DNA of 36,981 nt from Bacteroidales bacterium (GTDB lineage: Bacteria > Bacteroidota > Bacteroidia > Bacteroidales > UBA932), in assembly GCA_017544265.1 (NCBI GenBank), contig JAFYEM010000016.1, positions 1 to 36,981 on the forward strand, in the 5' to 3' direction. A model generated the notes under the pieces. The model was given only the letters and a program-made list of their open reading frames with translations, did not search any database and was not told the DNA's origin. Below are positions 4,516-32,833 of this stretch, one piece after another. The position numbers were made by a program, and so were the translations under genes. Position 1 is the first letter of the stretch, and each line of letters begins with the position of its first letter.

Positions 4516-6882
4516 ATGAGAAGGTATATCGCACTGCTGTTTTTGCTGGCAGCCTTCCAGGCCCACTCACGCGAGAATCCCGTGGCCGCGGAAAAGTCCA
4601 TGGTCACTCACGGGAACGCGCGTTTCACCGTACTGACGGACCGGCTTGTGAGGATGGAATGGGCAGAGGACGGCAAATTTGAAGACCGGGCCTCGCTTGC
4701 CTTTGTGAACCGGAATCTGCCTGTCCCCCGGTTCAGCGCGACCGTCAAGGGCGGAGTGCTCACCATCACCACGGACAAGATACGTCTGGTCTATAAGGGC
4801 GGACGTTTCGACCAGTCGAACCTCAGCGTACGCTTCGCCATGGGCACATGGACTCCCGGAATGAAAGCCGACGGCAACCTGAAGGGCACCACCCGCACCC
4901 TGGACGGATGCACCGGTTTCAACAAAATTTCAAAACTCGAGACCGGACTTGAAGACGGAATACTCTCCCGTGACGGATGGGCCCTTGTCGATGATTCCTC
5001 CAGGCATTTGTTCGATCCATCAGACTCCCCCGCCTGGCAGGAAGGATGGGTGACAGAAAGGCCCGGCGGAGACCGTCTGGACTGGTATCTTTTTGCCTAC
5101 GGCCATGACTATACCGCGGCGCTGGGTGATTTCGTGAAGATTGCCGGACGCATTCCGCTTCCGCCTAAATACACTCTCGGCTACTGGTGGAGCCGCTACT
5201 GGATTTTCACTGACGAGGATATACTTTCCCTTGCGAGGGAGATGCGCGAGCGGGACATTCCCATAGACGTGATGATAGTGGACATGGACTGGCACTACAC
5301 CTACAAGGATCTTGACAAGCGCCTCGGACGGGATGACTTCGGAGAGAGTCACGGCTGGACCGGTTATACCTGGAACAGGGACCTTTTCCCGGACCCTGAA
5401 GGCTTCCTGGGCGAGCTTCATGATATGGGATATAAAACATCTCTGAACCTGCATCCGGCATCCGGCATCCGCCCCTACGAGGAATGCTATCCCGCCTTTG
5501 TCAAGGACTACCTGTCCCGCACTGACGACTATGACGGCCCCCGTGGCTATGTCTTCGGGGAAGACGGCTGGAAGTACCGGGGGAACAGCGCGGTTTCGGG
5601 TAAAAAAGGCTATCGCGCCAGCGTCCCTTACCGCATGGACCAGATGGCATGGGCCGATGCCTATTTCAACAGCGTCATCCGCCCTCTGGAGAAGCAGGGC
5701 GTGGATTTCTGGTGGCTGGACTGGCAGCAGTGGATTGAGTCCAAATACGTCAAGGGCCTCAGCAACACCTTCTGGGTCAACCACGCCTTCTTTACCGACA
5801 AGGCCGTGAACGGAACAGAACGTCCGTTCATCTATCACCGCTGGGGCGGCCTCGGCAGCCACCGCTACCAGCTCGGGTTCTCCGGCGACACCTACGACGA
5901 ATGGGACGTGCTCAAATTCCTCCCCTACTTCACCGCAACTGCCTCCAATGTCGGCTACGGCTACTGGGGACACGATATCGGCGGCCACCATCAGCTCAAA
6001 GGGCACAAGCGTCTCACCGAGCCGGACATGTACACACGATGGATGCAGTTCGGCGTGTTCACTCCCATTTTCAAGACCCACTCCACCCAGCACATCAACC
6101 TGGAGAGGAAAATATGGGCCTATCCAAGCCACTACGACTACCTGTTTGCGGCAATACGCCTGCGCTATACCCTCTCCCCCTATATCTACACTTTCGCGCG
6201 TGAAGCCTTCGACACGGGAATATGCCTGTGCCGGCCGCTGTATTATGCCTATCCTGAAAAGGACGAGGCCTACTCTTACAACGAGCAGTACCTATTCGGC
6301 GACCGCATCCTGGCTACGGCCATAGCTGAGCCGGAGGGCGCCGACGGCAAATCGGCCAGGCCCATGTGGTTCCCGTCCGGCTGCGACTGGTACGACATGG
6401 CGCTTCACACAACTCACAAGGGCGGCAGCAAAAAGACACTGCGCTACTCCATAGACCAGAACCCCTGGTATGTCAAATCAGGCAGCATCATTCCGCTTGC
6501 AGGAAAACATATCAGCAGTCTGCAGGAAGCTTCCGACACACTGGGCATAATGGTGGTCCCCGGCGCGGGAAAATCCTCCTTCCGCCTTTATGAAGATGAC
6601 GGACTGTCCCGGAACTATGAAAGCGAATATGCCACCACCCTTATCGAAAAGGAACTCAGCGGCAGGAAACTTACTGTTAAAGTGAACCCGAGGGAAGGCT
6701 CATACCGGGGCATGAATCCATCCCGTAAACTGTACCTTCAGCTGGAGGGACGGGAATCCCTGCCGGGGAAGGTCCTTCTCAACGGAAAGGAGGCCGGAAG
6801 CTGCAGGAAGGAAGGGAAGTCCGTAATCGTGACTCTCCCGGAAGTATCTGCAAATGAAAGAGTTATAATAGAAATTCAATAA
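4516..6882 (+). CDS. Glycoside hydrolase family 31 (alpha-glucosidase/alpha-xylosidase type), exported
   Basis: This 788-residue retaining glycosidase has a signal peptide (residues 1 to about 18, ending AFQAHS) with no lipobox, so it should be periplasmic. The order is GH31: an N-terminal beta-sandwich (about 25-200); a TIM barrel starting with LGYWWSRYW, with DVMIVDMDWH on strand 3; the nucleophile Asp402 in WWLDWQQW; and the acid/base Asp458 in FSGDTYDEW. The barrel continues through GHDIGGH, and two C-terminal beta domains follow (about 610-788), including YEDDG. Members cleave terminal alpha-glucose, alpha-xylose or alpha-galactose; the subfamily cannot be fixed by eye. It stands alone, away from the SusC/SusD operon, and its stop abuts the convergent gene with no spacer. 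Confidence 0.95.
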   Translation: MRRYIALLFLLAAFQAHSRENPVAAEKSMVTHGNARFTVLTDRLVRMEWAEDGKFEDRASLAFVNRNLPVPRFSATVKGGVLTITTDKIRLVYKGGRFDQSNLSVRFAMGTWTPGMKADGNLKGTTRTLDGCTGFNKISKLETGLEDGILSRDGWALVDDSSRHLFDPSDSPAWQEGWVTERPGGDRLDWYLFAYGHDYTAALGDFVKIAGRIPLPPKYTLGYWWSRYWIFTDEDILSLAREMRERDIPIDVMIVDMDWHYTYKDLDKRLGRDDFGESHGWTGYTWNRDLFPDPEGFLGELHDMGYKTSLNLHPASGIRPYEECYPAFVKDYLSRTDDYDGPRGYVFGEDGWKYRGNSAVSGKKGYRASVPYRMDQMAWADAYFNSVIRPLEKQGVDFWWLDWQQWIESKYVKGLSNTFWVNHAFFTDKAVNGTERPFIYHRWGGLGSHRYQLGFSGDTYDEWDVLKFLPYFTATASNVGYGYWGHDIGGHHQLKGHKRLTEPDMYTRWMQFGVFTPIFKTHSTQHINLERKIWAYPSHYDYLFAAIRLRYTLSPYIYTFAREAFDTGICLCRPLYYAYPEKDEAYSYNEQYLFGDRILATAIAEPEGADGKSARPMWFPSGCDWYDMALHTTHKGGSKKTLRYSIDQNPWYVKSGSIIPLAGKHISSLQEASDTLGIMVVPGAGKSSFRLYEDDGLSRNYESEYATTLIEKELSGRKLTVKVNPREGSYRGMNPSRKLYLQLEGRESLPGKVLLNGKEAGSCRKEGKSVIVTLPEVSANERVIIEIQ

Positions 6883-7603: not shown

Positions 7604-9199
7604 TTACAGGTGTATTGAATTCAAGCTTTCTTCAAATTTTTCCCGGCCGTTAATCGCGGCATTCCGGTACTTGACACGGTAGTTGAAGACGGTTGTCGTG
7701 GAAAGCCTGAGGAACTGGGCGATATGCCGGGATTCCGTCATCCCCAGTTTTATCAGGGCAAGAACCCTGATTTCATTTGAGAGTTTCCCGCCGGGATGGT
7801 CCGTCTGTATCCGTCCTTCGGGACGCAGCAACTCATTCAGTTGCTCAATGAAAGTCGGGAACAGACCGAGGAAAGTCTTGTCGAAGACATCATACAGGTT
7901 GGACAGTTCCTCATTGATAAACTTGTTCGAGCGGAGTTCCTGCTGCATGGCATCCATATCCATTCTCTTGGCCAGTACGCGCAACCTCGACCGATACCTT
8001 TCAAGCGCGTCAATATGGTTGGAGAACATGGAGAAAAAATGTCCCAAATACACTTCGTTTGTCCTGGTGGCCTCGTCAATGATCTTCATATTGTCATTGA
8101 TGGCCTTGTTGGCGCGGGTCAATTTATTGTTGTTGACTATCAACATTACGATTGCAGCTAAAAGCATGAGCAAAAAGAGCAGCAGCGAGATATTCAGGAA
8201 AACTGTAATAGACTTCTGCTTCTGGGATATCTGCTCATAGGCAATACCGATATCATACAGGCTTTCGCCTATCTGTTTCAGACGCCTCCTTGCGTCAGCA
8301 GCGAGGGCATCCTCGTAACATCTGCGGATATAACGGTATGCACGTTCCGTCATTCCCATGTCATAACACAGCTGAGCCACTTTGATCAAAGATCCGTACT
8401 CGCGGTTGGCACATTCTAAATCTTCCCGGGCGCTTAAGACATATCTCAGGAAAGAATTCCGGGCATCCCCCATAGTCTCATAGGCCTTTCCCATCCACCA
8501 GTTGACAATAGCTTTGTCATGCACTCCGATACTGTCGTCGTCTAGTTTATTCCGCAGTATAATGACAAGCTGGCCGCTTTTTCCTTCAGCTATCATCGAT
8601 TTCGAAAGGAAGATAAAGTAATTTATTTCATTCTTGTCTATGTTACGGACCGCCCTTTCAAGATGAAGATCTTCCAGATCCAGGAACTCACTTTGCGCAT
8701 ACTTGTCACTGAAGGAAAGAACCAGATTATGGTATATTTCATAAAGCAACAAATCTCTGCGCGGATCATTAAGGAAGAATGAGCCGGTGATGCTGTTCGC
8801 ATTCAAGATAACATCAAGCGCCTCCTGATACATAGACGAAGTAATGTAGCGGGAGGAAATATCAGCTGCAGCATCATTAATAAGTTCAGAATCATTGAGA
8901 GTCCGGGCCAGCAATTCCTTGCGGTGGGCATAAAAAAAAGCAGAATCAGAGTTCCACATCTCGTACTCGTCAAACAAGGAATCATAGATATCATATAACT
9001 GGCTGCGCCCTTCAGCAAAAGGAATCAGCCGTTGCAGCGAATCGATACGGATTTCCTTTCTGCGGGCATAGATATCAGAATTGTCCAGGGCCTGGTCGAG
9101 GGAAACAAGTGCATCCTCAAGTTCGGGCTCCAAACTCACATGTCCGATGTTACAGGAGGAGAAAACAATAAGACAAAATAAAAGAATACGAAAGCGCAT
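7604..9199 (-). CDS. DUF6377-like membrane-anchored transcriptional regulator with C-terminal HTH
   Basis: This 531-residue protein has an N-terminal signal with lipobox-like VFSSC (Cys16). A long helical, TPR-like sensor region (about 25-325) follows, then a single strong membrane segment (about 331-355). Next is a cytoplasmic coiled-coil region (about 358-475), with a C-terminal helix-turn-helix at about 480-525 (LIKLGMTESRHIAQFLRLST followed by VFNYRVKYRN). This is the architecture of DUF6377 proteins, which sit beside SusC/SusD-type loci and are presumed to pass a periplasmic signal straight to DNA, without a kinase step. It is divergent from the 22-kb operon across a 222-bp intergenic region, so it is the obvious candidate regulator of it. 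The ligand is unknown. Confidence 0.85.
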   Translation of the reverse strand: MRFRILLFCLIVFSSCNIGHVSLEPELEDALVSLDQALDNSDIYARRKEIRIDSLQRLIPFAEGRSQLYDIYDSLFDEYEMWNSDSAFFYAHRKELLARTLNDSELINDAAADISSRYITSSMYQEALDVILNANSITGSFFLNDPRRDLLLYEIYHNLVLSFSDKYAQSEFLDLEDLHLERAVRNIDKNEINYFIFLSKSMIAEGKSGQLVIILRNKLDDDSIGVHDKAIVNWWMGKAYETMGDARNSFLRYVLSAREDLECANREYGSLIKVAQLCYDMGMTERAYRYIRRCYEDALAADARRRLKQIGESLYDIGIAYEQISQKQKSITVFLNISLLLFLLMLLAAIVMLIVNNNKLTRANKAINDNMKIIDEATRTNEVYLGHFFSMFSNHIDALERYRSRLRVLAKRMDMDAMQQELRSNKFINEELSNLYDVFDKTFLGLFPTFIEQLNELLRPEGRIQTDHPGGKLSNEIRVLALIKLGMTESRHIAQFLRLSTTTVFNYRVKYRNAAINGREKFEESLNSIHL

Positions 9200-23399: not shown

Positions 23400-24365
23400 A
23401 TGAAGAAGTTAATCAGCATATTGTCAGGAGCTGTTCTGCTCGCCGCCCTGCTTCCCTCTTGCAAGGGTAGCAAGGAAAATTCAGATGTATTTCCCAGCTC
23501 GCTGACCCTGTCACAGACAGAGATGGACCTTCAAGTCGGCGAATCAAAGGCCCTGGAAGCGACCATCCTTCCCGCAGACGCCGGCGACAAGAGCGTCGCA
23601 TGGTCTTCCACCAACCCCCGGCGGGTTGGCGTCGATGCAAACGGGCTAGTCAGCGCAATCGCCGTGGGTACGGCATACGTCGTAGCCGAAACGGTCAACG
23701 GAATCAAGGCATCATGCCTTGTCCACGTGTCGTCTTCGGGTACTGACAGCTATAAAGTAAGCCTGTACAACGGAAGCGCCGAGGTCAGCGGCACACTTTA
23801 CAGCTGGCCGGGCAATACCGTCAGGCTGGAGGCCAGGAGCGACGACGGCAAAACGCACAGTTATTTCTGGAGCTCAAACAGCGAAAACACCACGGTAAAT
23901 GACGGACTTGTGACTTTCGGATGGGAACAAAGGGAAGATATGGAAGGCTTCGCCTGGTACTGTGAAGCCGTAATCAGGGTTACCAGTACGGACGGATGCG
24001 GCACTTACGTAAACGCCGTTTCCTCCATCGGAAAGAGCTTCCGTTTCGGCCCTTCCTCAGAAACGATAGGCTCCGACGTTACCATCCTGGCAGGTAAATC
24101 CGCGGAAATATCACTCAACTGGTTCGACGGCAGCGCCTTCACACCTCTTCCGGAAAACGTGGAATATACCCTTAAATCGCAGGATACTTCCATCCTTTCG
24201 GTGGACGGACACACGGTATCCAGTTCGGAGCAGACCGTGGGCAGCACCATCCTTTCGGTAGTCCTTTCCGGACGGGAATTCGCACTCTGCAATGTACGGG
24301 TTGAAAAAGACGGTTCCAAAGACTCCTCAGGCGAGCCTTATACAGAATATCCGGTCAACTGGTAG
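23400..24365 (+). CDS. Bacterial Ig-like (Big2) domain lipoprotein ending in VNW
   Basis: This is a 321-residue lipoprotein (Cys21 in LPSC). ATG 23400 is preferred over 23367 because it begins a standard MKKLISIL signal and follows the previous stop by 2 bases. Residues about 30-112 form a Big2-type Ig-like domain (LQVGESKALEATILP, VAWSSTNPRRVGVDANGLVSAIAVGTAYVVA). The middle and C-terminal parts are beta-rich; the stretch SILSVDGHTVSSSEQTVGST resembles a second, degenerate Big2 repeat. The protein ends in EPYTEYPVNW, a Trp-terminal tail resembling the end of the last protein of the operon. A surface-exposed structural or binding role is likely. Confidence 0.82.
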   Translation: MKKLISILSGAVLLAALLPSCKGSKENSDVFPSSLTLSQTEMDLQVGESKALEATILPADAGDKSVAWSSTNPRRVGVDANGLVSAIAVGTAYVVAETVNGIKASCLVHVSSSGTDSYKVSLYNGSAEVSGTLYSWPGNTVRLEARSDDGKTHSYFWSSNSENTTVNDGLVTFGWEQREDMEGFAWYCEAVIRVTSTDGCGTYVNAVSSIGKSFRFGPSSETIGSDVTILAGKSAEISLNWFDGSAFTPLPENVEYTLKSQDTSILSVDGHTVSSSEQTVGSTILSVVLSGREFALCNVRVEKDGSKDSSGEPYTEYPVNW

Positions 24366-24411
24366 GACAGCCCGGAGAATGATTTAGAAATACATTAACT
24401 AATTTTTTAAT

Positions 24412-24552
24412 ATGAAGAAACTTTACATTGAACCTAAGAGTGTCGAGTTGAAACTCGAGATACACTCGGTCATCATGGCCAGCAGGGAATCTATTGGCAC
24501 GGTGAGTATTGAATCGTTGACAATTGAAGATGATTCAGAAGAATGGAATTAA
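24412..24552 (+). CDS. 46-residue acidic peptide with MKKLYIEP start and EDDSEEWN end
   Basis: This is a complete small frame, 46 codons plus TAA, between the Big2 lipoprotein (46 bases upstream) and the large GLUG protein (15 bases downstream), in the operon direction. It starts MKKLYIEPKSVELKLEIHSV and continues through MASRESIG to ESLTIEDDSEEWN. Bacteroidales genomes often carry small uncharacterised genes with a similar MKK.YI.P start, a hydrophobic stretch ending in an (L/M)AS-type motif, and a variable acidic tail. This peptide fits that general plan; the comparison is from memory. The tail closely matches the C-terminus of the protein ending at 31434. Function is unknown: a precursor or signalling peptide, a pilus-assembly accessory or a chaperone-type peptide are all possible. 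Confidence 0.75.
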   Translation: MKKLYIEPKSVELKLEIHSVIMASRESIGTVSIESLTIEDDSEEWN

Positions 24553-24567
24553 TAAAATGCTAACGAT

Positions 24568-27500
24568 ATGAAAAAATCACTGAAATTACTGGGTATCATG
24601 GCAATGACTCTTGCCGTGATATCATGCAGCAAGGAACTTGGCACTTCCGAAACTGAAAAGATCAATGAGAATCAGCCCGAAGCCACAGCCTCTGAGGACG
24701 AAGACAAGCCCGCTGACGGAGTGAATGTGGACGGGGAGAAATATCTTGCCGGCTTCGGTGTTGAAGTGGAAGGCATAGACTCTAAAGTAAGCGTAACTCT
24801 TGCTACCGGCGCCCTTGCCTTCGAAGATGGAGACGAGGCCCTGGTGGTATGCGGCAGCGCAAGCGGTGTCTATGTCTATGATTCGGCAAGCGCCGTGTTC
24901 TCGCCCAAGGCAGCAGCGGACGCAGTCGAGGTTTCCGGACAGGAGGCCCAGGTGTACTACCCTGCCGCCGAGTTTGCCTTGAACGCCGGTGCGGTCACAT
25001 TTACAATGCCCGCAGCAGTTGTTGCCGGAGATGCCGCAGATCTTGGCGACAAACTGCCACTCTGCGGCACAATCCCCGCTTCAGAGAACCCTGTGGCAAG
25101 TTTCAAGAACCTCGGTTCAATACTGTATGTCCGCTTTAATTCCGCTGCTGCGGACGGTGAGACAATCACCGCCCTGGAACTCAGCGGCAGCGGTGTCAAC
25201 ATCACTGGCAGCGGCGCTGTTACCTGGGCCGATACAGACGCCCAGGTGGCTGGCCTGGAGCCTGTCCTGGCAGCGCTCTCCGGAGACGGCGCCGGGACAT
25301 CCCTTACCATCGACTGCAGCCTGGCACCCAAGCACCTGAGCTCCGCAGACTATCAGGAGTTCTTCTTCTTCCTTCCCCAGAGCGGCAGTTTCGCGGACAT
25401 GCAGCTCAAGGCCGTTTATGGTAAGACCGACGGATCGAACAGCTATACCCTCTACGAACTCGTGAGCCGCACAAGCGCAATGACCCTCGGACGCGGAAAA
25501 CTGAAAAAGCTCGAGAAGAGCCTGAACGGATTCTTCAGCGGCGGCGACGGTTCCTCTTCCCACCCCTACCTGATTTCCTCCTGCGACGACTTCAAGGCCC
25601 TCTCCACAATGGGCAATGTCACGGCTGACGCTTCTGTAGGGAACAGGTACTATGAGTACAACAGCACTGCTAAGCGCAACTTCTTCCGCTCATCAGGCGC
25701 CAACTACCAGCAGACCGCAGATCTTGACTTTGAAAACGCCGACATTACTAACTTTATGGTTGGCATCGCCGGAAGCAACGGAGAAGCCGCAAGTTTCAAA
25801 GGCCACTATGACGGCAATTCAAAGAAGATTTCCAATTTCTCAATCACAACCGACAAGGATTGGGCTGGACTTTTTGCCAATATGCAGGGAGAAGTGAAGA
25901 ACCTTGAACTGAATACTATTTCCGTTTCAGGAAATCAAGCTGTCGGCGGCATTGTAGGATGGCTCAACGGCAAGGTCACAGACTGCTCGGTAACAGGCAC
26001 TTCTTCTGTTACCGGTACAAACGGAGCTGCCGGTATCGCCGCCAACATCCGCAATTCTTCCGAAGTGTCCGGCTGCACCAACTACGCTGCAATCAGCGGT
26101 GAGGGCAATATTGGCGGCATCGTGGGTTATATGGCCAATGCAGGAGGGAAGATTCTTCTTTGCAATAACTATGGTACGGTTACCGGCACCGCAAACAGTG
26201 TCGGCGGTATCGTCGGCCAGAGCTACCAGGCCGGAGCCAAGGTCTATGGCTGCCAGAATTTTGCCGATGTTACAAGTTCCGGAAACTTCGTCGGCGGACT
26301 GGTTGGCAATGCCGGAGCCGGAGTGGACATCAATGCCACTTCAAACACCTATTGCCGCAATGAGGGGAATGTGACTGGAGCTGCGTATACCGGCGGTATC
26401 GTCGGACAGCTTGGCGGCAACTCCATTGCCTGCACCACCAATACCGGTACAGTCGAAGGCACTTTCGACGTAGGCGGAATCGTAGGTTATAAGAAGAACG
26501 GCGGAATCTGGTCCAATACGTACAACGAGGGAAATGTTACTGCCCAGTACAATGTAGGCGGCCTTGCCGGACGTCAGGATGCCAGCGGAATATCGGGCAA
26601 TGTCCTTACAAACCCCAATAACCACGTATGGAACAAAGGTAATGTCACAGCGACTGGAAAAGACGGCAACCTTGCTTATGCCGGAGGACTTATCGGCCGT
26701 ATGAACGGCGGCGCGCTCGGAGATGCCTCTGTCAAGAAGACCGTTGAAAATTACGGCAATGTAACCAGCACAGGCGGCGGCCAGGGTGTAGGAGGCATGG
26801 TCGGTTATATTTCGGCCGGTACCATTGCCCACTGTATGAGCGACGCTACCGTCATTGGCAACCAGAAATGCGTGGGCGGAGCAATCGGCTGGATGGCCGG
26901 CGGCAAAGTCTATAACTGCTACGCCAAAGGTATCGTTAAGGGACAGGGCCAGGTAGGAGGTTTCGTCGGTTACCTTTTTGCCTCGGCCAATAGTTACATA
27001 ATCAACTGCGCAGCCGGTGCCGAAAGAGTAGTCGCTACCAATAAGAATACTAACGACGGCGTGGGCGGCTTCGTAGGATATATGAACCAATCATCTGCTG
27101 AAAATGCAGACAAACAGGCCGTAATTGCAAACTGCGTAGTCTGGGAAGGAATCATCAAAGCGCCCAATGAGGACAACACGGCAAGCAATAAGATCCGTGT
27201 CGGAGGCTTTGCCGGTGTCGGTAATGCGCAGAGCGGCGGCAAAGCCAACTCCCTCATCCAGGTCTGCTATTATCAGGGCCTGCCCACCACTGTCGGTTAC
27301 GGCGGTGCTGAAGATGACAATTCCCTTCCTACCGTTAATTCCGACGGCACAGGAGTAGTCGGCGGCTTCATCGGATACGCCGGCGGAACCACCAAGGACT
27401 GCTACTGCGACCGCGCTGGCAGCACTGCTTACAAATTAAACGGCAGCGGTTCTGTATCATACGGCGGAAGGATGGTAACGAATATTGTCTATGGCAGAGC

Positions 27501-27708
27501 CATGATTTCTTGGGATGTCAACACTTCCGCAGGATCAGTAGCAAAAAATACCGTATATTTTGACGGGCTTCTGAACACTATTGTGGACAGCGTAGGAAGC
27601 CTCGGCGACATTACCCTTAGCCAGTGGACTTCATACACCGTCGGTACTGACAAGTATTACTATCCTGACATACTCACCAGTATGGGCGAAATCTTCTACA
27701 AGAAGTAG
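24568..27708 (+). CDS. Large fimbrillin-like lipoprotein with GLUG repeats
   Basis: This 1046-residue lipoprotein (Cys20 in VISC, then SKELGTSETEK) has an acidic linker (about 25-60). A fimbrillin-like domain follows (about 60-320; FEDGDEALVVCG, VASFKNLGSILYVRF). A short SSSHPYLISSCDDFKALS segment (about 330-350) and a QTADLDFENADI segment (about 385) lead into the repeat array. About fourteen GLUG-type repeats (consensus VGGIVGY/W) cover residues 459-940. A non-repetitive C-terminal part (about 945-1046) ends MGEIFYKK. GLUG repeats build beta-solenoid stalks of adhesins. It is probably a long surface fibre or adhesin; no catalytic residues are apparent. Confidence 0.88.
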   Translation: MKKSLKLLGIMAMTLAVISCSKELGTSETEKINENQPEATASEDEDKPADGVNVDGEKYLAGFGVEVEGIDSKVSVTLATGALAFEDGDEALVVCGSASGVYVYDSASAVFSPKAAADAVEVSGQEAQVYYPAAEFALNAGAVTFTMPAAVVAGDAADLGDKLPLCGTIPASENPVASFKNLGSILYVRFNSAAADGETITALELSGSGVNITGSGAVTWADTDAQVAGLEPVLAALSGDGAGTSLTIDCSLAPKHLSSADYQEFFFFLPQSGSFADMQLKAVYGKTDGSNSYTLYELVSRTSAMTLGRGKLKKLEKSLNGFFSGGDGSSSHPYLISSCDDFKALSTMGNVTADASVGNRYYEYNSTAKRNFFRSSGANYQQTADLDFENADITNFMVGIAGSNGEAASFKGHYDGNSKKISNFSITTDKDWAGLFANMQGEVKNLELNTISVSGNQAVGGIVGWLNGKVTDCSVTGTSSVTGTNGAAGIAANIRNSSEVSGCTNYAAISGEGNIGGIVGYMANAGGKILLCNNYGTVTGTANSVGGIVGQSYQAGAKVYGCQNFADVTSSGNFVGGLVGNAGAGVDINATSNTYCRNEGNVTGAAYTGGIVGQLGGNSIACTTNTGTVEGTFDVGGIVGYKKNGGIWSNTYNEGNVTAQYNVGGLAGRQDASGISGNVLTNPNNHVWNKGNVTATGKDGNLAYAGGLIGRMNGGALGDASVKKTVENYGNVTSTGGGQGVGGMVGYISAGTIAHCMSDATVIGNQKCVGGAIGWMAGGKVYNCYAKGIVKGQGQVGGFVGYLFASANSYIINCAAGAERVVATNKNTNDGVGGFVGYMNQSSAENADKQAVIANCVVWEGIIKAPNEDNTASNKIRVGGFAGVGNAQSGGKANSLIQVCYYQGLPTTVGYGGAEDDNSLPTVNSDGTGVVGGFIGYAGGTTKDCYCDRAGSTAYKLNGSGSVSYGGRMVTNIVYGRAMISWDVNTSAGSVAKNTVYFDGLLNTIVDSVGSLGDITLSQWTSYTVGTDKYYYPDILTSMGEIFYKK
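25942..27387 (+). repeat. GLUG repeat array (about 14 units)
   Basis: Within the large lipoprotein, units with the core V-G-G-(I/L/M/F)-(V/A/I)-G recur roughly every 25-50 codons: VGGIVGW, IGGIVGY, VGGIVGQ, VGGLVGN, TGGIVGQ, VGGLAGR, AGGLIGR, VGGMVGY, VGGAIGW, VGGFVGY and VGGFIGY among others. The DNA is similar but not identical between units, so copy-number change by recombination is possible yet not recent. It is coding and is not a CRISPR array. Confidence 0.85.
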
Positions 27709-27714
27709 CAGACT

Positions 27715-30606
27715 ATGCGAATCCTGAAATCCACCTTACTCCTTCTCGGAGCCCTTGCTTTCCTCTTTTCCGCCTGCACGCGGGAAGAGGAAGGCAGGCC
27801 CGGGGAGACCGAAGGCACCGTCTTTACCCTCAAGGCAAGTTTTGCCGAAGCAGGGGCTAAGGCGGAGGTGGGCAGCGACGGCAGCTGCTCCTGGCAGGCC
27901 GGTGACAAAATCGCGGTGTATGACGCTGTGGGCGGCAATTTCTGCGAATTCACCACCGAAGCAGGCGACGGAGTTTTCACCTTTACGGGAGCTCCCGGCG
28001 CGTCATATGATTTCACCCACGCCTACTACCCCTCTTCCTTCGCCGGCGGCGCCATGGAAATTACCCTTCCTGGTTCCTATTCCGTGGAGGATATACAGAC
28101 CACTTCAGCCTTCCCCATGACCGGGAATGTCGAGGAAGGAAACATACGGCTCTGCCACCTTGCGGCACTGCTGAAATACAATCTGAAAGGGATTCCCGCC
28201 ACGGCGACCAGTATCGAACTGTCTTCGCCCACCGTATCGCTCAGCGGAAGTTTCCCCGTGGAAGGCTCATCACTGAACGACGGATGGATTTCAGCCGACG
28301 GAGAAAATTTCACTGACCATCCGGACGTGGAATTCAAGTCCGGCGTGGATTTCCGGGAAATCCACGCCCGTTCCGGCGCCGGCGCCGTGAGCATTTCCCT
28401 TGTCCCCGGAGCTAACGAGAACATCACCGTCTATCTGCCTCTGCCGATCGGGGCCTATGCCTTCACCACCAGAATCAAGGCTGGAGAAGATATTCTCTAC
28501 GAGAACACCACCACGGCACTGAAGGACATCTACCGGGCCCACCTCGTGCAGATGCATCCCTTCAAGCCGGGATTCGGCGGCGGCACCGGTACGGCTTCGA
28601 GCCCTTACCTTATCAGCACTCCGGCCCACTTTATGGAACTTTCCGGCACCACTGACCCGGACTTCCTCTCGGCCAGTTACCTACAGACTGCAGACCTGGA
28701 CCTCGCCGGCGCTTCATTCAGCCCCTGCGGCAGCTCTGCCGCTCCCTTTACCGGCGTCTATGACGCTGACGGGCACAGCATCAGCAACCTGTCGGTATCC
28801 GTCAGCGGTGACAATGCCGGCCTGTTCGGCTGTATCTCCGGCGGAACTGTCAGAAAGCTGAACATCGCTTCCTCCTCCGTGAGCGCAAGCGGGCAGAATG
28901 CCGGTTCCATTGCCGGTCTCCTAACCAATGGAGGACGGATCTCGTCATGCCGCGTCGATGCGGCAAGTACAGTAACTTCAGGCGCACGTGCAGCCGGCTC
29001 GATAGTCGGAAAGGTGGTCGGCGGCACCATAGACAATTGCGCTTCACACGGAAATGTCACGGGCTACGACTGCGTGGGCGGTATTGCCGGTTTCCTGAAT
29101 CCGAACGGAACAAATGAAGTGCTGGTTATAAACTGCGTGTATGAACCCGTATATGAGGCCGGGAAGATGGCGAAAGCCGTTCTCCAGAGTTCCAATACAA
29201 GTGCCTACATCGGCGGAATCTCCGGTGCAGCCAATGCATCCGGCGGCTCCAGCCACGTTTCGGTAGTGAACTGCTATGCCTATCCTCTGGAAATGCGCAG
29301 CACCCAGGCCGCCGGCACCACCGGAGTCTGGTTCGTGGGCGGAATTCTCGGCCGTATGGTCAGCTCCAACGTGGATCTTTTCAACTGCATCAGCCCTATT
29401 ACCTATTCCAACGTCATTATCGGAGGGACAAGGCTGAATGCAAAGACCATGTCTTCATACAGCGCAATGGCCTGTATCGTGGGACAGGTAAACGCCGACG
29501 GCTGTACCATCCGCAGGGCCTATTCCAAGAAAACCTGGCCGTACTGCTACCGCCTGACCAGCGGGAAGAGCGTCACGACTTCCGACATTTCGTTGAAGAT
29601 GGGTGACAGCAATATGCGCGGATACCACAATGTGATGTATTCCTCAAGCCATCCGATTAGCGGTGTACTGGGTTATACCGAGGCTGACGGAGGCATAGCG
29701 GCTGCGCTGAATAAAGGTGTCCGCGAGTGGAACAGCGGTTCTCCTGCAGTCCCCGCGGTCAGCTGGGACTATGACCCCACATTCGGCTATCCGAAGCCAG
29801 AGGGAGTGGATGTCCCCGGTATCGTCACCAGGAAAGTGAGCATCATAGGAGACTCCATCTCCACCTATGAAGGCTACATCTTCTCCACCGACCTCGCCGG
29901 AATGGGCAAGTTCTATCCCGACACGGGCAATTACGGCACCTATGGCGACGCCATGGTCCTCAACGAGCAGGATACCTGGTGGTGGCATATTATCCATGAC
30001 TATATGTCCAATACCCGCCTGGAAGTGTGCAATGCCTGGGGAGGAACCACCACGAGCTATTTCACGTCCAATATCACAGTTGGCGGAGTAACCGCCGAAG
30101 CTTACGCCCGCAGCATGGAGAACAGCCTCCAGTCCAGGAACCTGGACTATGGGCTCGGACATCCGGACATTCTGATTTACTACGGCGGAAGGAACGATTT
30201 CGGCTATGTGGGCAATAACAGCGACATCCTTCTCGGCTCGTTCACAGACGAGTCCCTGCAGGCTGCTTTGGACGCCCCCCAGGGTTCGAAGTTCAACAAT
30301 TACTCCCAGGGAACCGTGGCAATCCTCAAAGATTTCCATACCAAGAATCCCGGAGCCAAGATAGTGATTGTGCTTCACGACCTTATGGACGACGGCTATG
30401 AAGATGCTGCCACGGCTGTCAGGACCTTCCTCGACGGAAAGGGATATGATATCAGGTTCGTGAATCTGCACAAGAGGGGAACCACCAACAGCACCAACAC
30501 CGAAATCGGTGTCAGCAAGGAGAACGGTTCCCATCCCAACAAGGCCGGCTGCGCCAACATCGCGTCTTACTTTGTCAATCAATTAGGTAACTGGCTGGAG
30601 GAATAG
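27715..30606 (+). CDS. Fimbrillin-like/GLUG/SGNH-hydrolase chimeric lipoprotein
   Basis: This 963-residue lipoprotein (Cys21, followed by TREEE, a surface-export signal) has three parts. A fimbrillin-like domain spans about 25-285 (CSWQAGDKIAVYD, LCHLAALLKYNL). GLUG-like repeats span about 365-555 (NAGLFGCISGG, NAGSIAGLL, VGGIAGFL, VGGILGRM), introduced by SSPYLISTPAHFMELS. A C-terminal SGNH/GDSL hydrolase spans about 706-963: block I IGDSIS (Ser714), the Gly of AWGGTT, block III YYGGRNDF, and block V GSHPN (His940). In block V the usual Asp three residues before His is Asn, so the triad may be altered. SGNH enzymes are often glycan deacetylases or esterases. It follows the previous gene by 6 bases and precedes the next by 3. 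Confidence 0.88.
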   Translation: MRILKSTLLLLGALAFLFSACTREEEGRPGETEGTVFTLKASFAEAGAKAEVGSDGSCSWQAGDKIAVYDAVGGNFCEFTTEAGDGVFTFTGAPGASYDFTHAYYPSSFAGGAMEITLPGSYSVEDIQTTSAFPMTGNVEEGNIRLCHLAALLKYNLKGIPATATSIELSSPTVSLSGSFPVEGSSLNDGWISADGENFTDHPDVEFKSGVDFREIHARSGAGAVSISLVPGANENITVYLPLPIGAYAFTTRIKAGEDILYENTTTALKDIYRAHLVQMHPFKPGFGGGTGTASSPYLISTPAHFMELSGTTDPDFLSASYLQTADLDLAGASFSPCGSSAAPFTGVYDADGHSISNLSVSVSGDNAGLFGCISGGTVRKLNIASSSVSASGQNAGSIAGLLTNGGRISSCRVDAASTVTSGARAAGSIVGKVVGGTIDNCASHGNVTGYDCVGGIAGFLNPNGTNEVLVINCVYEPVYEAGKMAKAVLQSSNTSAYIGGISGAANASGGSSHVSVVNCYAYPLEMRSTQAAGTTGVWFVGGILGRMVSSNVDLFNCISPITYSNVIIGGTRLNAKTMSSYSAMACIVGQVNADGCTIRRAYSKKTWPYCYRLTSGKSVTTSDISLKMGDSNMRGYHNVMYSSSHPISGVLGYTEADGGIAAALNKGVREWNSGSPAVPAVSWDYDPTFGYPKPEGVDVPGIVTRKVSIIGDSISTYEGYIFSTDLAGMGKFYPDTGNYGTYGDAMVLNEQDTWWWHIIHDYMSNTRLEVCNAWGGTTTSYFTSNITVGGVTAEAYARSMENSLQSRNLDYGLGHPDILIYYGGRNDFGYVGNNSDILLGSFTDESLQAALDAPQGSKFNNYSQGTVAILKDFHTKNPGAKIVIVLHDLMDDGYEDAATAVRTFLDGKGYDIRFVNLHKRGTTNSTNTEIGVSKENGSHPNKAGCANIASYFVNQLGNWLEE

Positions 30607-30609
30607 ACT

Positions 30610-31434
30610 ATGAAAAGAATTGTAATAATCTGCGCAGTAACAGCTCTGGCCATTTCCTGCAGCAAGTCTCAGCAGGGCGCTCCCCTCATGAGGGAATGGG
30701 CGTTCGAGACTGAATATACCAAGGCTTCAATAGATGACAGCGGTGTCTTCTCATGGCAGCAAGGCGACCGTATAGACATCTGGGACGCCACATCGGCCTC
30801 GTTTGTGCCTTTCACGACCATTGCCGGAAAAGGGCGCTTTGTGGCCACGGCCCCGGACAACGCCAGTTTCTCGCTTGCCGCTTTCTACCCCTCGGGCATA
30901 GCCGGAGGAACCTCGTACATATCGCTTCCCTCCTCCTATGCATCCGCAGCTGAAGCGACAGCGGTTTTTCCCATGTATGCACCTGTAAATGAAGGCGATA
31001 ACACCTTGCATTTCAAGCATCTCGGAGCCGCTTTGACCATCACCTGCACCAGTGTCCAGCCGGAGCTTGACCGACTTGAACTGCGCTCTGCCGGTACAAC
31101 CCTGAGCGGCCGTTTCGACCTGAGCACGGTTTCCGGCAATCAGCTTATCCAGCAGAAGACCGGCAACGGAACTGCCGAAGTACGCTTCTCCCTTTCGGAA
31201 GAAGGAACTGTTTCGGTGACTATTCCGATACCGGTGGGCACATATCCCGTCAGTATCTGCCTCGGGAACGATACAGACCACGAAATGCTGGTCGTAAGCA
31301 GTTCCTCCGACATGACATTCGAAAGGGCGCACCGCTATAAACTGAAAGCATTCGACTACATGACAGAGCGTTACGCTTTTGCCGGAGGCACGATGGAAAG
31401 CCTCACGGTGGAAGACGATTCCGTCAACTGGTAA
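30610..31434 (+). CDS. Fimbrillin-like lipoprotein with EDDSVNW C-terminal tail
   Basis: This 274-residue lipoprotein (Cys17 in AISC, then SKSQQ) consists of one fimbrillin-like domain. It includes FSWQQGDRIDIWDATSASF, FYPSGIAGGTSYISLPSSY, the LHFKHLGAALTITC strand and LSGRFDLS. It parallels the N-terminal domain of the preceding protein block by block, so the two are paralogues. The last residues, MESLTVEDDSVNW, closely match the end of the 46-residue peptide encoded at 24412. It is the last gene of the operon; a hairpin terminator begins 18 bases after the stop. Probable role: a short surface or fibre subunit or anchor, by analogy with Mfa/FimA-type proteins. Confidence 0.85.
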   Translation: MKRIVIICAVTALAISCSKSQQGAPLMREWAFETEYTKASIDDSGVFSWQQGDRIDIWDATSASFVPFTTIAGKGRFVATAPDNASFSLAAFYPSGIAGGTSYISLPSSYASAAEATAVFPMYAPVNEGDNTLHFKHLGAALTITCTSVQPELDRLELRSAGTTLSGRFDLSTVSGNQLIQQKTGNGTAEVRFSLSEEGTVSVTIPIPVGTYPVSICLGNDTDHEMLVVSSSSDMTFERAHRYKLKAFDYMTERYAFAGGTMESLTVEDDSVNW

Positions 31435-31452
31435 ATCTCCAGGGAGTTTTCT

Positions 31453-31490
31453 GCCGGCCGCCGGAGTCTGGAAAGACTTCAACGGCCGGC
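31453..31490 (+). terminator. Terminator of the 22-kb operon
   Basis: A nested hairpin: outer stem GCCGGCCG (31453-31460) with CGGCCGGC (31483-31490), and an inner stem AGTCT/AGACT closed by GGAA. It lies 18 bases after the last stop and is followed by CTTTCAGTT and an AT-rich stretch. The T-run is weak, but the stem is very stable and nothing upstream interrupts the operon in a comparable way. Confidence 0.7.
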
Positions 31491-31515
31491 CTTTCAGTTA
31501 ATTAAAAATTTTACT

Positions 31516-31523
31516 TATATTTG
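31516..31523 (+). promoter_or_regulatory. Candidate -7 box for the UDP-sugar dehydrogenase gene
   Basis: TATATTTG is an exact TAnnTTTG match, 41 bases before the ATG at 31565. At the -33 position only an imperfect TTTC is present. Confidence 0.5.
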
Positions 31524-31564
31524 TGGGATTTATGTGTCAAGACAAATAATTTACAACAACAGCA

Positions 31565-32833
31565 ATGAAGCAGATCAAGATTTGTGTCATCGGACTTGGA
31601 TATGTGGGATTGCCATTGGCACGACTGTTTTCCACAAAGTACCCTACAATAGGCCTGGACCTCAATGAACACAGGGTAAAGGCCCTTATGGCCGGCCATG
31701 ACGAGACCCTGGAAGTGGCTGACGCTCTTCTGCAGGAAGCAATCGAAAAACATGGTTTCAAATGCACCTCCTCCCTTGATGAAGTGCGCGACTGCAACTT
31801 CTATGTAGTTGCGGTACCCACACCTGTGAAAGACGACAATACGCCGGACCTCCGCCCGCTTGTGGGAGCCAGCGAAACAGTCGGAAAAGTCATATCCAAG
31901 GGGGACATCGTGGTCTATGAGAGCACGGTTTACCCCGGAATGACCGAAGAAGTCTGCATTCCCATTGTGGAAGAAGTCAGCGGCCTGAAATTCAACCGGG
32001 ACTTTTTCGCGGGCTACAGCCCCGAACGCATCAATCCGGGCGACAAGGAACACACCGTGGAGAAAATCCGCAAAGTGACCTCGGGAAGTACGCCCGAGAT
32101 AGCGGACATAGTGGACGGAGTTTATAATTCCGTACTCGTCAACGGCACCCACAAGGCCTCCAGCATCCGGGTAGCCGAAGCTTCCAAGATTATTGAGAAC
32201 TCCCAACGCGACGTGAATATCGCATTCATGAATGAGCTGGCGAAGATTTTCGACGCAATGGGCATAGACACCCACGACGTGATTGAGGCGGCATCGACAA
32301 AATGGAACTTCATCAAGCTCACTCCGGGTCTGGTCGGCGGTCACTGCATATCAGTGGACCCCTACTACCTCATACACAAGTCCCAGGCCTATGGCATTTT
32401 CCCGCGCGTTATGCTGAACGCCCGTCGCCTGAACGAAAGCATGGGTGAATATGTCGCATACCAGGTTATCAAGTTGATGAACCTGAAGGGCATCCTCGTC
32501 AAGGACGCCAGAATCCTGCTCCTGGGCATTACCTTCAAGGAGAACTGCCCAGATATCCGCAACACCAAGGTGGTGGATATCTACAGGATTCTCCATACCT
32601 ATACCGACAACATAGTCATCTATGACCCCTGGGCGAATGCCGCGCAGGTAAAGAAGGAATACGGCCTGGATATTGTGAAGCAACTGCCGCAGGAGAAGTT
32701 CGATGTGATCGTGCACGCCGTGGCTCACCGCGATTTCCAGAAAATGGACATACGCTCCCTTCTCAGGGAGGGCGGAGTAGTCTATGACGTCAAGGCAGCC
32801 CTTCCTAAGGAAGTCGTGGATGCACGCCTATAA
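31565..32833 (+). CDS. Nucleotide-sugar (UDP-HexNAc type) dehydrogenase
   Basis: This 422-residue cytoplasmic enzyme belongs to the UDP-glucose/GDP-mannose dehydrogenase family. It oxidises the C6 hydroxyl of a UDP-sugar to a carboxylate in two NAD-dependent steps. The NAD-binding Rossmann motif GLGYVGLP is at residues 10-17, YSPERINPGD at about 151-160, and the catalytic Cys261 is in GGHCISVDPYYL. The C-terminal domain starts around 310 with ITFKENCPDIRNTKV. The SPERINPGD block and the overall sequence resemble the TviB/WbpA branch, acting on UDP-GlcNAc or UDP-GalNAc and supplying uronic acids for capsule or O-antigen. It is followed 3 bases later by a serine acetyltransferase gene. No polysaccharide glycosyltransferases are visible nearby. 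Confidence 0.93.
   Translation: MKQIKICVIGLGYVGLPLARLFSTKYPTIGLDLNEHRVKALMAGHDETLEVADALLQEAIEKHGFKCTSSLDEVRDCNFYVVAVPTPVKDDNTPDLRPLVGASETVGKVISKGDIVVYESTVYPGMTEEVCIPIVEEVSGLKFNRDFFAGYSPERINPGDKEHTVEKIRKVTSGSTPEIADIVDGVYNSVLVNGTHKASSIRVAEASKIIENSQRDVNIAFMNELAKIFDAMGIDTHDVIEAASTKWNFIKLTPGLVGGHCISVDPYYLIHKSQAYGIFPRVMLNARRLNESMGEYVAYQVIKLMNLKGILVKDARILLLGITFKENCPDIRNTKVVDIYRILHTYTDNIVIYDPWANAAQVKKEYGLDIVKQLPQEKFDVIVHAVAHRDFQKMDIRSLLREGGVVYDVKAALPKEVVDARL

Follow-up and report, generated by a model that had tools for sequence, protein, structure and literature searches.

We analysed a stretch of 36,981 nucleotides (nt) from a Bacteroidales bacterium (GTDB lineage UBA932; contig JAFYEM010000016.1 of assembly GCA_017544265.1), hereafter the window, which carries an operon in which a 46-residue peptide, P0002, and the lipoprotein encoded last, P0003, end in closely similar acidic tails with a terminal tryptophan. 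The run of genes begins with products that we take, by their sequences, to be SusC and SusD, followed by BACON and DUF5689 proteins, a further lipoprotein and a Big2 lipoprotein; then come the peptide, a GLUG lipoprotein, a GDSL lipoprotein and, finally, the tail lipoprotein. The features concerned are as follows.

23400..24365, forward strand: Big2 lipoprotein ending PVNW; the terminal Trp is kept in two orthologues and its tie to the tag is doubtful.
24412..24552, forward strand: gene of the 46-residue peptide P0002, a member of an unnamed small-peptide family.
24424..24486, forward strand: leader of the peptide, which runs for 21 residues, starting with the Tyr of Y..P and closing at a [SG][SG]-like position.
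24508..24549, forward strand: C-terminal tag of the peptide, IESLTIEDDSEEWN, from translation.
24568..27708, forward strand: lipoprotein with a fimbrillin-like domain and GLUG repeats, starting 15 nt past the peptide stop; candidate partner of the tag.
27715..30606, forward strand: lipoprotein with a fimbrillin-like part and a GDSL Pfam match; one orthologue (locus L050) bears the tag as an extra C-terminal extension.
30610..31434, forward strand: the 274-residue fimbrillin-like lipoprotein P0003, final gene of the run, from domain alignment and lipobox.
31393..31434, forward strand: C-terminal tag of P0003, MESLTVEDDSVNW, with the stop codon, from translation.

Translation gives exactly the two tails that the earlier note on this DNA had quoted. 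The whole peptide reads MKKLYIEPKSVELKLEIHSVIMASRESIGTVSIESLTIEDDSEEWN, in which no signal peptide is evident by eye, and P0003 ends in TMESLTVEDDSVNW. The note had also drawn in the Big2 lipoprotein, which does end PVNW (YTEYPVNW) and whose two orthologues end PVNW and PVSW; the terminal Trp is thus present in three of three, but the rest of the motif is absent. None of the remaining lipoproteins of the window operon ends in such a tail.

In P0003 the lipobox Cys17 is invariant among six sequences (P0003 and its orthologues), and a profile of 56 lipoproteins encoded directly downstream of related peptides aligns, through its N-terminal domain, with residues 1-251 (hhalign probability 99.9, E 4.8e-33). 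Among these 56, five match the fimbrillin model PF13149 at E<=0.01 and three match the NCBIfam model fim_Mfa1, the commonest NCBIfam match being the PG1828-type lipoprotein model (9/56); P0003 itself is matched by no Pfam or NCBIfam fimbrillin model. The tail falls outside the aligned domain, behind a variable linker. Pairwise identity among five divergent orthologues is 41% in the domain columns, 14% in the linker and 34% in the tail, so that the tail forms an island beyond a loose linker, and two of its residues, E268 and W274, are invariant in all six sequences, the orthologues being 35-73% identical. The AlphaFold model of P0003 is weak (mean predicted local distance difference test score, pLDDT, 47.8), and within it the last 25 residues are among the lowest scoring, with block means of 23-37; this would suit a flexible tail but is little proof of one. 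The best sequence match in the PDB is partial (E 0.011, to a biofilm-associated surface protein) and offers nothing useful.

Over the last 14 aligned residues, P0002 and P0003 are identical at nine positions. When the peptide tail was scored against the C-termini of 598 large open reading frames (ORFs) from 72 loci, P0003 was the best match (53), the next six were tail-bearing proteins of homologous operons (37-50), and the best unrelated C-terminus scored 27. Scores of 53 are reached by 106 of all 178,503 pairs among these C-termini; the bodies are homologous in 103 of them, and the three non-homologous pairs share domain-end motifs (SDH.P in two, NPN.TQN.GY in one). None of 7,740 peptide/ORF pairs drawn from different loci outside this operon type reaches 34. 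A profile of the tail, run on 400 genomes of the genus at E<=0.05, returned 16 matches, namely eight family peptides and eight tagged lipoproteins. Thirteen of the 16 were already among its building sequences; the new ones are the peptide of genome G386, a near twin of the G457 peptide that was in the profile, and both matches in G325. An earlier run on 200 genomes, carried to E 1, gave 12 matches up to E 0.0011, all of the tag kind, and 15 weaker ones (E 0.19-0.92) that we took as chance. The motif is therefore neither scattered at random nor lacking in orthologues, the two outcomes named beforehand as fatal to a shared element: it is conserved in orthologues, and the profile matches are confined to peptides and to lipoproteins of this operon type.

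The operon is present in UBA3764 (L044) and RUG13005 (L045), with tail lipoproteins 73% and 65% identical, respectively. RUG13005 keeps both tails (IESLTIEDDSDEWN on the peptide and VESLNVEDDSANW on the lipoprotein), and the UBA3764 lipoprotein ends in LDNLSLEDDSVNW. Five further operons were found, L047 (G512:C13), L051 (G454:C8), L049 (G466:C75), L050 (G466:C46) and L256 (G325:C15), the last through the tail-profile search; in L047 the tagged lipoprotein sits in a divergent transcription unit. Each of the eight operons with a tagged lipoprotein also contains a family peptide within its locus. In six of them peptide and lipoprotein alike pass the cut-off of the tail profile (E<=0.05), the L049 and UBA3764 peptides falling below it.

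The tail is also found on other carriers. The 11.8-kb contig of L050 has no fimbrillin-like tail protein after the GDSL gene; there, the GDSL orthologue (52% identical to the window protein over 951 residues) continues with a linker and IENFDLEDDSSIWE at the point where the window GDSL protein stops (NWLEE). This tail is closest to that of the fimbrillin-like orthologue in L256 (66), as if the body of the usual carrier had been lost and its tag kept. L049 supplies a third carrier of at least 579 residues, the 5' end of whose gene may be cut by the contig; it is unrelated by BLAST to the other carriers and ends DIENFDTDDWE.

Two neighbours of the operon may be recorded here. The divergent gene at 7604-9199 of the window (reverse strand), presumably a regulator by its look, has an orthologue (38.8% identity) that also flanks the tail operon in L256. 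In UBA3764 a gene that looks glycoside-hydrolase-like (L044:1425-3797) lies between the Big2 lipoprotein and the peptide; it is 85.8% identical to window 4516-6882, a gene found upstream of the operon in the window.

Within an operon, the two tails are more alike than across operons. The score sum of the true peptide/lipoprotein pairing in eight operons is reached by only 3 of 40,320 pairings, the true one included, and in seven operons by 2 of 5,040; among six representatives without near-orthologues only the true pairing, 1 of 720, reaches its sum. The peptide's own lipoprotein is closer than the best other peptide in three of the six representatives. Constraint can also be read from the codons: in a comparison with RUG13005, the final 17 codons of the window peptide show a synonymous difference (pS) of 0.84 and a nonsynonymous difference (pN) of 0.17, and the first 27 codons, with a pN of 0.47, are less constrained than the tail.

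These data bear on a purely historical account, in which the lipoprotein acquired its tail long ago from the 3' end of a peptide gene and the resemblance serves no function today. Such a fusion had been raised in the earlier note, and it gains from L050, where the tail has indeed been joined to another gene, from the confinement of sharing to the window operon type plus a few weak cases, and from the decay of the peptide tail in UBA3764. However, among the eight identical tail residues of the window pair that have synonymous codons, five use different codons and three the same, so that there is no sign of recent copying here; gene conversion between the two genes is disfavoured by the same codon differences. 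The constraint on the peptide tail (one comparison), the Glu and Trp invariant down to 35% identity, the paired covariation and the retention of the tail where its usual carrier is missing speak for a present role, and we consider history alone unlikely.

A donor strand for fibre assembly, which had also been suggested, would have the tail complete the fold of the next fimbrillin-like subunit, with the peptide as a free donor or cap. The carriers are fimbrillin-like, the tag places hydrophobic residues at I, L and I/V, and the part of PMC5954841 considered here describes how the C-terminal strand of a neighbour fills the FimA groove. The same part reports that Asp in place of the terminal hydrophobic residues of Mfa1 stopped polymerisation; it also notes tolerance of proline changes and treats the donor strand of Mfa1 as unsettled (PMC5954841). 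The tail, however, is strongly acidic (EDDS), lies beyond the fimbrillin-like domain and recurs as an appendix at the C terminus of a GDSL protein; moreover, the other lipoproteins of the operon have no such tail and the peptide has no visible export signal. The effect of Asp in Mfa1 (PMC5954841), as far as that excerpt goes, and the tail on the GDSL protein make the donor-strand account less likely; in its classical, hydrophobic form it is unlikely, and we give little credence to the broader version.

The family to which P0002 belongs is a larger find than the tail pair of the window. As a single query against the taxonomic family, P0002 gave, beyond the window itself, chance-level matches only, and a profile of 17 members was therefore required. 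Against 151 genomes of the genus at E<=0.1, this profile found the family in 120, at up to 18 places per genome; the source genome has 12 places at E<=1. Across the phylum, 6 of 395 genomes match the family profile at E<=0.01, the source genome included; one match is probably chance (inside a 366-residue frame), and four others fall in two further families of the class. No Pfam or NCBIfam model covers the 17 members (Pfam touched one member at E 0.19, and the best NCBIfam value was E 0.03), and PHROGs, searched with 41 members, returned two families, one undescribed and one of Rz-like spanins, each through a single member at E 0.008. No literature on such peptides was found, as judged by titles and the beginnings of abstracts. 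In Bacteroides and Prevotella, peptides of the form 'MKK..Y..P' are probably common among the hypothetical proteins.

The Y..P anchor is present in 144 of 146 peptides and opens a leader of about 21 residues with the consensus Y..P.....E..[IFL][LC].[SG][SG], in which Glu is found in 68%, Ser or Gly at position -2 in 46% and 18%, and Ser or Gly at -1 in 42% and 21%. The leader of P0002 has His where those 68% have Glu, and ends S-R. The segment that follows is variable and acidic (average 20 residues, net charge -4.6). Trp stands within the last two residues in 34 of 90 peptides, compared with 11 of 191 lipoproteins recognised by pattern and 9 of 407 other large ORFs, tagged proteins being included in both ORF groups.

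This architecture invites comparison with a precursor peptide, cut at [SG][SG] so that the acidic segment is released as a signal or ligand, perhaps modified, while the lipoprotein displays the same segment. The fixed-length leader, Glu at -8, small residues at -2 and -1, the acidic segment of about 20 residues and the many copies per genome would all suit such a product, as would operon-specific segments common to peptides with unlike leaders. The motif, on the other hand, is GG-like at most, with Ser commoner than Gly, and by eye no modification enzyme was recognised among the ORFs of the window, no search having been made. The C39 peptidase model PF03412 found nothing in the source genome (90.5% complete) and matched in 13 of the 151 genus genomes, in a search in which 8 of 14 controls were positive; a precursor in this sense is quite unlikely. 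Export of the peptide by a C39 peptidase is unsupported in the source genome, and C25 peptidases gave no match there in a search lacking a positive control.

Gene order within the family is regular. We collected 141 distinct peptides from 112 loci, of which 120 have a large ORF on the same strand within 300 nt downstream; 105 of these ORFs are lipoproteins by a pattern that overlooks some, and several of the 15 pattern-negative ones visibly carry a lipobox. The remaining peptides lie in another arrangement (10) or at a contig end (11). Among the 105 peptide-lipoprotein pairs, 44 gaps measure 11-20 nt and 65 measure 0-30 nt, and 37 pairs overlap if the most upstream ATG is taken. The 56 downstream lipoproteins aligned above were drawn from 102 distinct ones preselected by a lipobox pattern, which accounts for their invariant Cys; W..GD.I was not so selected, and its W and D are kept in at least 90% of them. 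In the tail-bearing operons an orthologue of the GLUG lipoprotein directly follows the peptide in seven of eight, the exception being L049.

Such an arrangement would suit a cis-acting leader, a small upstream ORF through which translation of the following lipoprotein is controlled or coupled, the tails being incidental; a length of about 45-60 codons also suits the ribosome tunnel. This would leave the same tail on a lipoprotein, and the covariation, unexplained; in L047 the tagged lipoprotein belongs to a divergent transcription unit, and no Rfam match was found within 24200-31700. We therefore regard it as very unlikely. A scan of 24300-31700 gave 12 promoter-like sites (5.1 expected) and four terminator-like sites (7.5 expected), which we leave uninterpreted.

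Like tails recur in some other loci of the family. Peptide pairs within a locus (n=33) have a mean score of 23.3 versus 15.7 in 10,536 between-locus pairs, a difference reached in 0 of 20,000 resamples that treat pairs as independent; the 33 include near-duplicates in L137 and L228, without which the mean is 19.8, and for the L137 pair the leader was scored wrongly, its Y..P anchor being misplaced within a 104-residue ORF. Like tails follow unlike leaders in L124 (KEDYT..D.FG.D), in a second operon of L045 (YY.NVF) and in L109, and more weakly in L052. In that second operon of RUG13005 (L045:15482-15802), two adjacent peptides with different leaders have the common tail (D/N)YY.NVF. For peptide/ORF pairs, 6 of 1,088 score at least 28 against a background rate of 0.00078, a small excess of which four look like chance (three on the opposite strand and one with an ORF not adjoining the peptide). 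The scores in L109 (34 and 29), L048 (25) and L266 (25) are suggestive. L109:5939-8240 and L048:10095-12001 have similar neighbourhoods, with genes that we take to be GpsA/GlpT-like, and there a lipoprotein and peptides share another tail, with an E[ND]M core, independently of the window operon type. In a third family (L266:7708-10096) the peptide ends DYSNDTWD and the downstream lipoprotein SYNANSWDK, a possible further instance. In the more distant family f4 (L258-L265), a lipoprotein-like ORF comes directly after the peptide in 10 of 11 cases; an RCVR motif, presumably FISUMP-like, closes several of these lipoproteins, the leaders often end GSA-like, and W stands near the tail. Ten f4 peptide/lipoprotein tail pairs were scored, none above 18.

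We tentatively propose that the two tails represent one C-terminal docking tag, portable and specific to its operon, carried both by the peptide and by a membrane-tethered protein, and would put the probability of this at roughly 0.45. A tag that is kept and varied in step among relatives suggests an undescribed docking signal, and the common recognition element put forward in the earlier note thus gains support from conservation in orthologues, covariation within operons and the tail on another protein when its usual carrier is missing. In this speculative model the peptide gene product would be two-part, with a family-wide leader, which may be cleaved, and a variable acidic segment presenting a soluble copy of the tag. 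The lipoprotein encoded last would present the same tag tethered to the membrane, on its extension past the fimbrillin-like domain. Soluble and tethered tags might then bind one and the same partner, itself a product of the operon; the likeliest candidate is the fimbrillin-like domain of the lipoprotein whose gene comes right behind that of the peptide, since this neighbour, the GLUG orthologue, stays the same in seven of the eight tagged operons. With both forms binding the same partner, the peptide could compete with the tethered tag, take its place beforehand or regulate it. This presumes that the peptide leaves the cytoplasm; if it remains there, it may still encounter the lipoprotein while that is unfolded and not yet exported, or a targeting factor common to both.

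Several observations weigh against the docking tag. As a family-wide rule tail sharing is rejected: with the directly downstream lipoprotein the mean score over 131 pairs is 10.93, versus 10.75 when peptide and lipoprotein are mismatched (p=0.27), although three of these pairs score at least 24 where 0.7 are expected. In P0003 the tail window ranks 150 of 251 in conservation, not above the domain, and so is not the most conserved part of the protein. The UBA3764 peptide tail is degenerate (IEPLFIEVDGGWN), and the whole peptide, compared between the window and UBA3764, shows little constraint (pN 0.44, pS 0.58). The covariation test covers six to eight operons; in it the L049 pair does not covary (13, versus a mean of 16.4 with other lipoproteins), and the L050 peptide scores 41 with the L256 lipoprotein and 39 with its own, the L050 and L256 tails being nearly interchangeable in pairing. 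G386 has a tagged peptide and no tagged lipoprotein within the 19.9 kb read; G457, whose contig stops some 200 nt beyond its peptide, likewise shows no tagged lipoprotein. Peptides of one locus can also resemble each other in the leader and differ in the tail (L221, L110 and L090), and the C39 peptidase, the export route looked for, was not found in the source genome.

If the docking tag is real, it would represent an undescribed layer of signalling or assembly on fimbrillin-like lipoproteins and would offer a small, synthesisable ligand for each operon, making the partners of these poorly understood lipoproteins directly testable. A wider extension, that the Bacteroidia hold a large undescribed family of leader-plus-tag peptides, mostly encoded just upstream of fimbrillin-like lipoprotein genes, whose operon-specific tags, soluble on the peptide and in some operons also tethered on a lipoprotein, form an address code deciding the assembly or restraint of surface complexes, is rather doubtful. 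Mechanism aside, a widespread small-peptide family stands unmodelled by Pfam and NCBIfam.

Among known systems, the acidic C-terminal tips of the single-stranded DNA-binding protein (SSB) type have an aromatic residue close to the end of an acidic tail and act as a hub ligand. They belong to different proteins and a different compartment, and the analogy extends only to how the tag may work. Cargo of the type IX secretion system (T9SS) carries a long C-terminal sorting domain that is removed by PorU, whereas the tag described here comprises 13-14 residues. The consensus of double-glycine leaders has Glu at -8, as do 68% of the leaders of the present family. Bacteroidetocins (PMC6671954), as far as the excerpt considered describes them, resemble the family further in a leader of fixed length, a preference for small residues at -2 and -1 and a short C-terminal product; the present peptides differ in a leader of about 21 residues counted from the Tyr, [SG][SG] at its end, an acidic product and a source genome in which the C39 gene was not found. 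There is also a likeness to the type V pili (FimA/Mfa1; Mfa_like_1, PF13149), as the lipoproteins encoded after the peptides are fimbrillin-like and their profile aligns with the domain of P0003. The part of PMC5954841 considered here describes no such small peptide. What sets the present tag apart from these pili is that it forms an acidic extension outside the fimbrillin-like domain and is common to a small peptide with no evident signal sequence.
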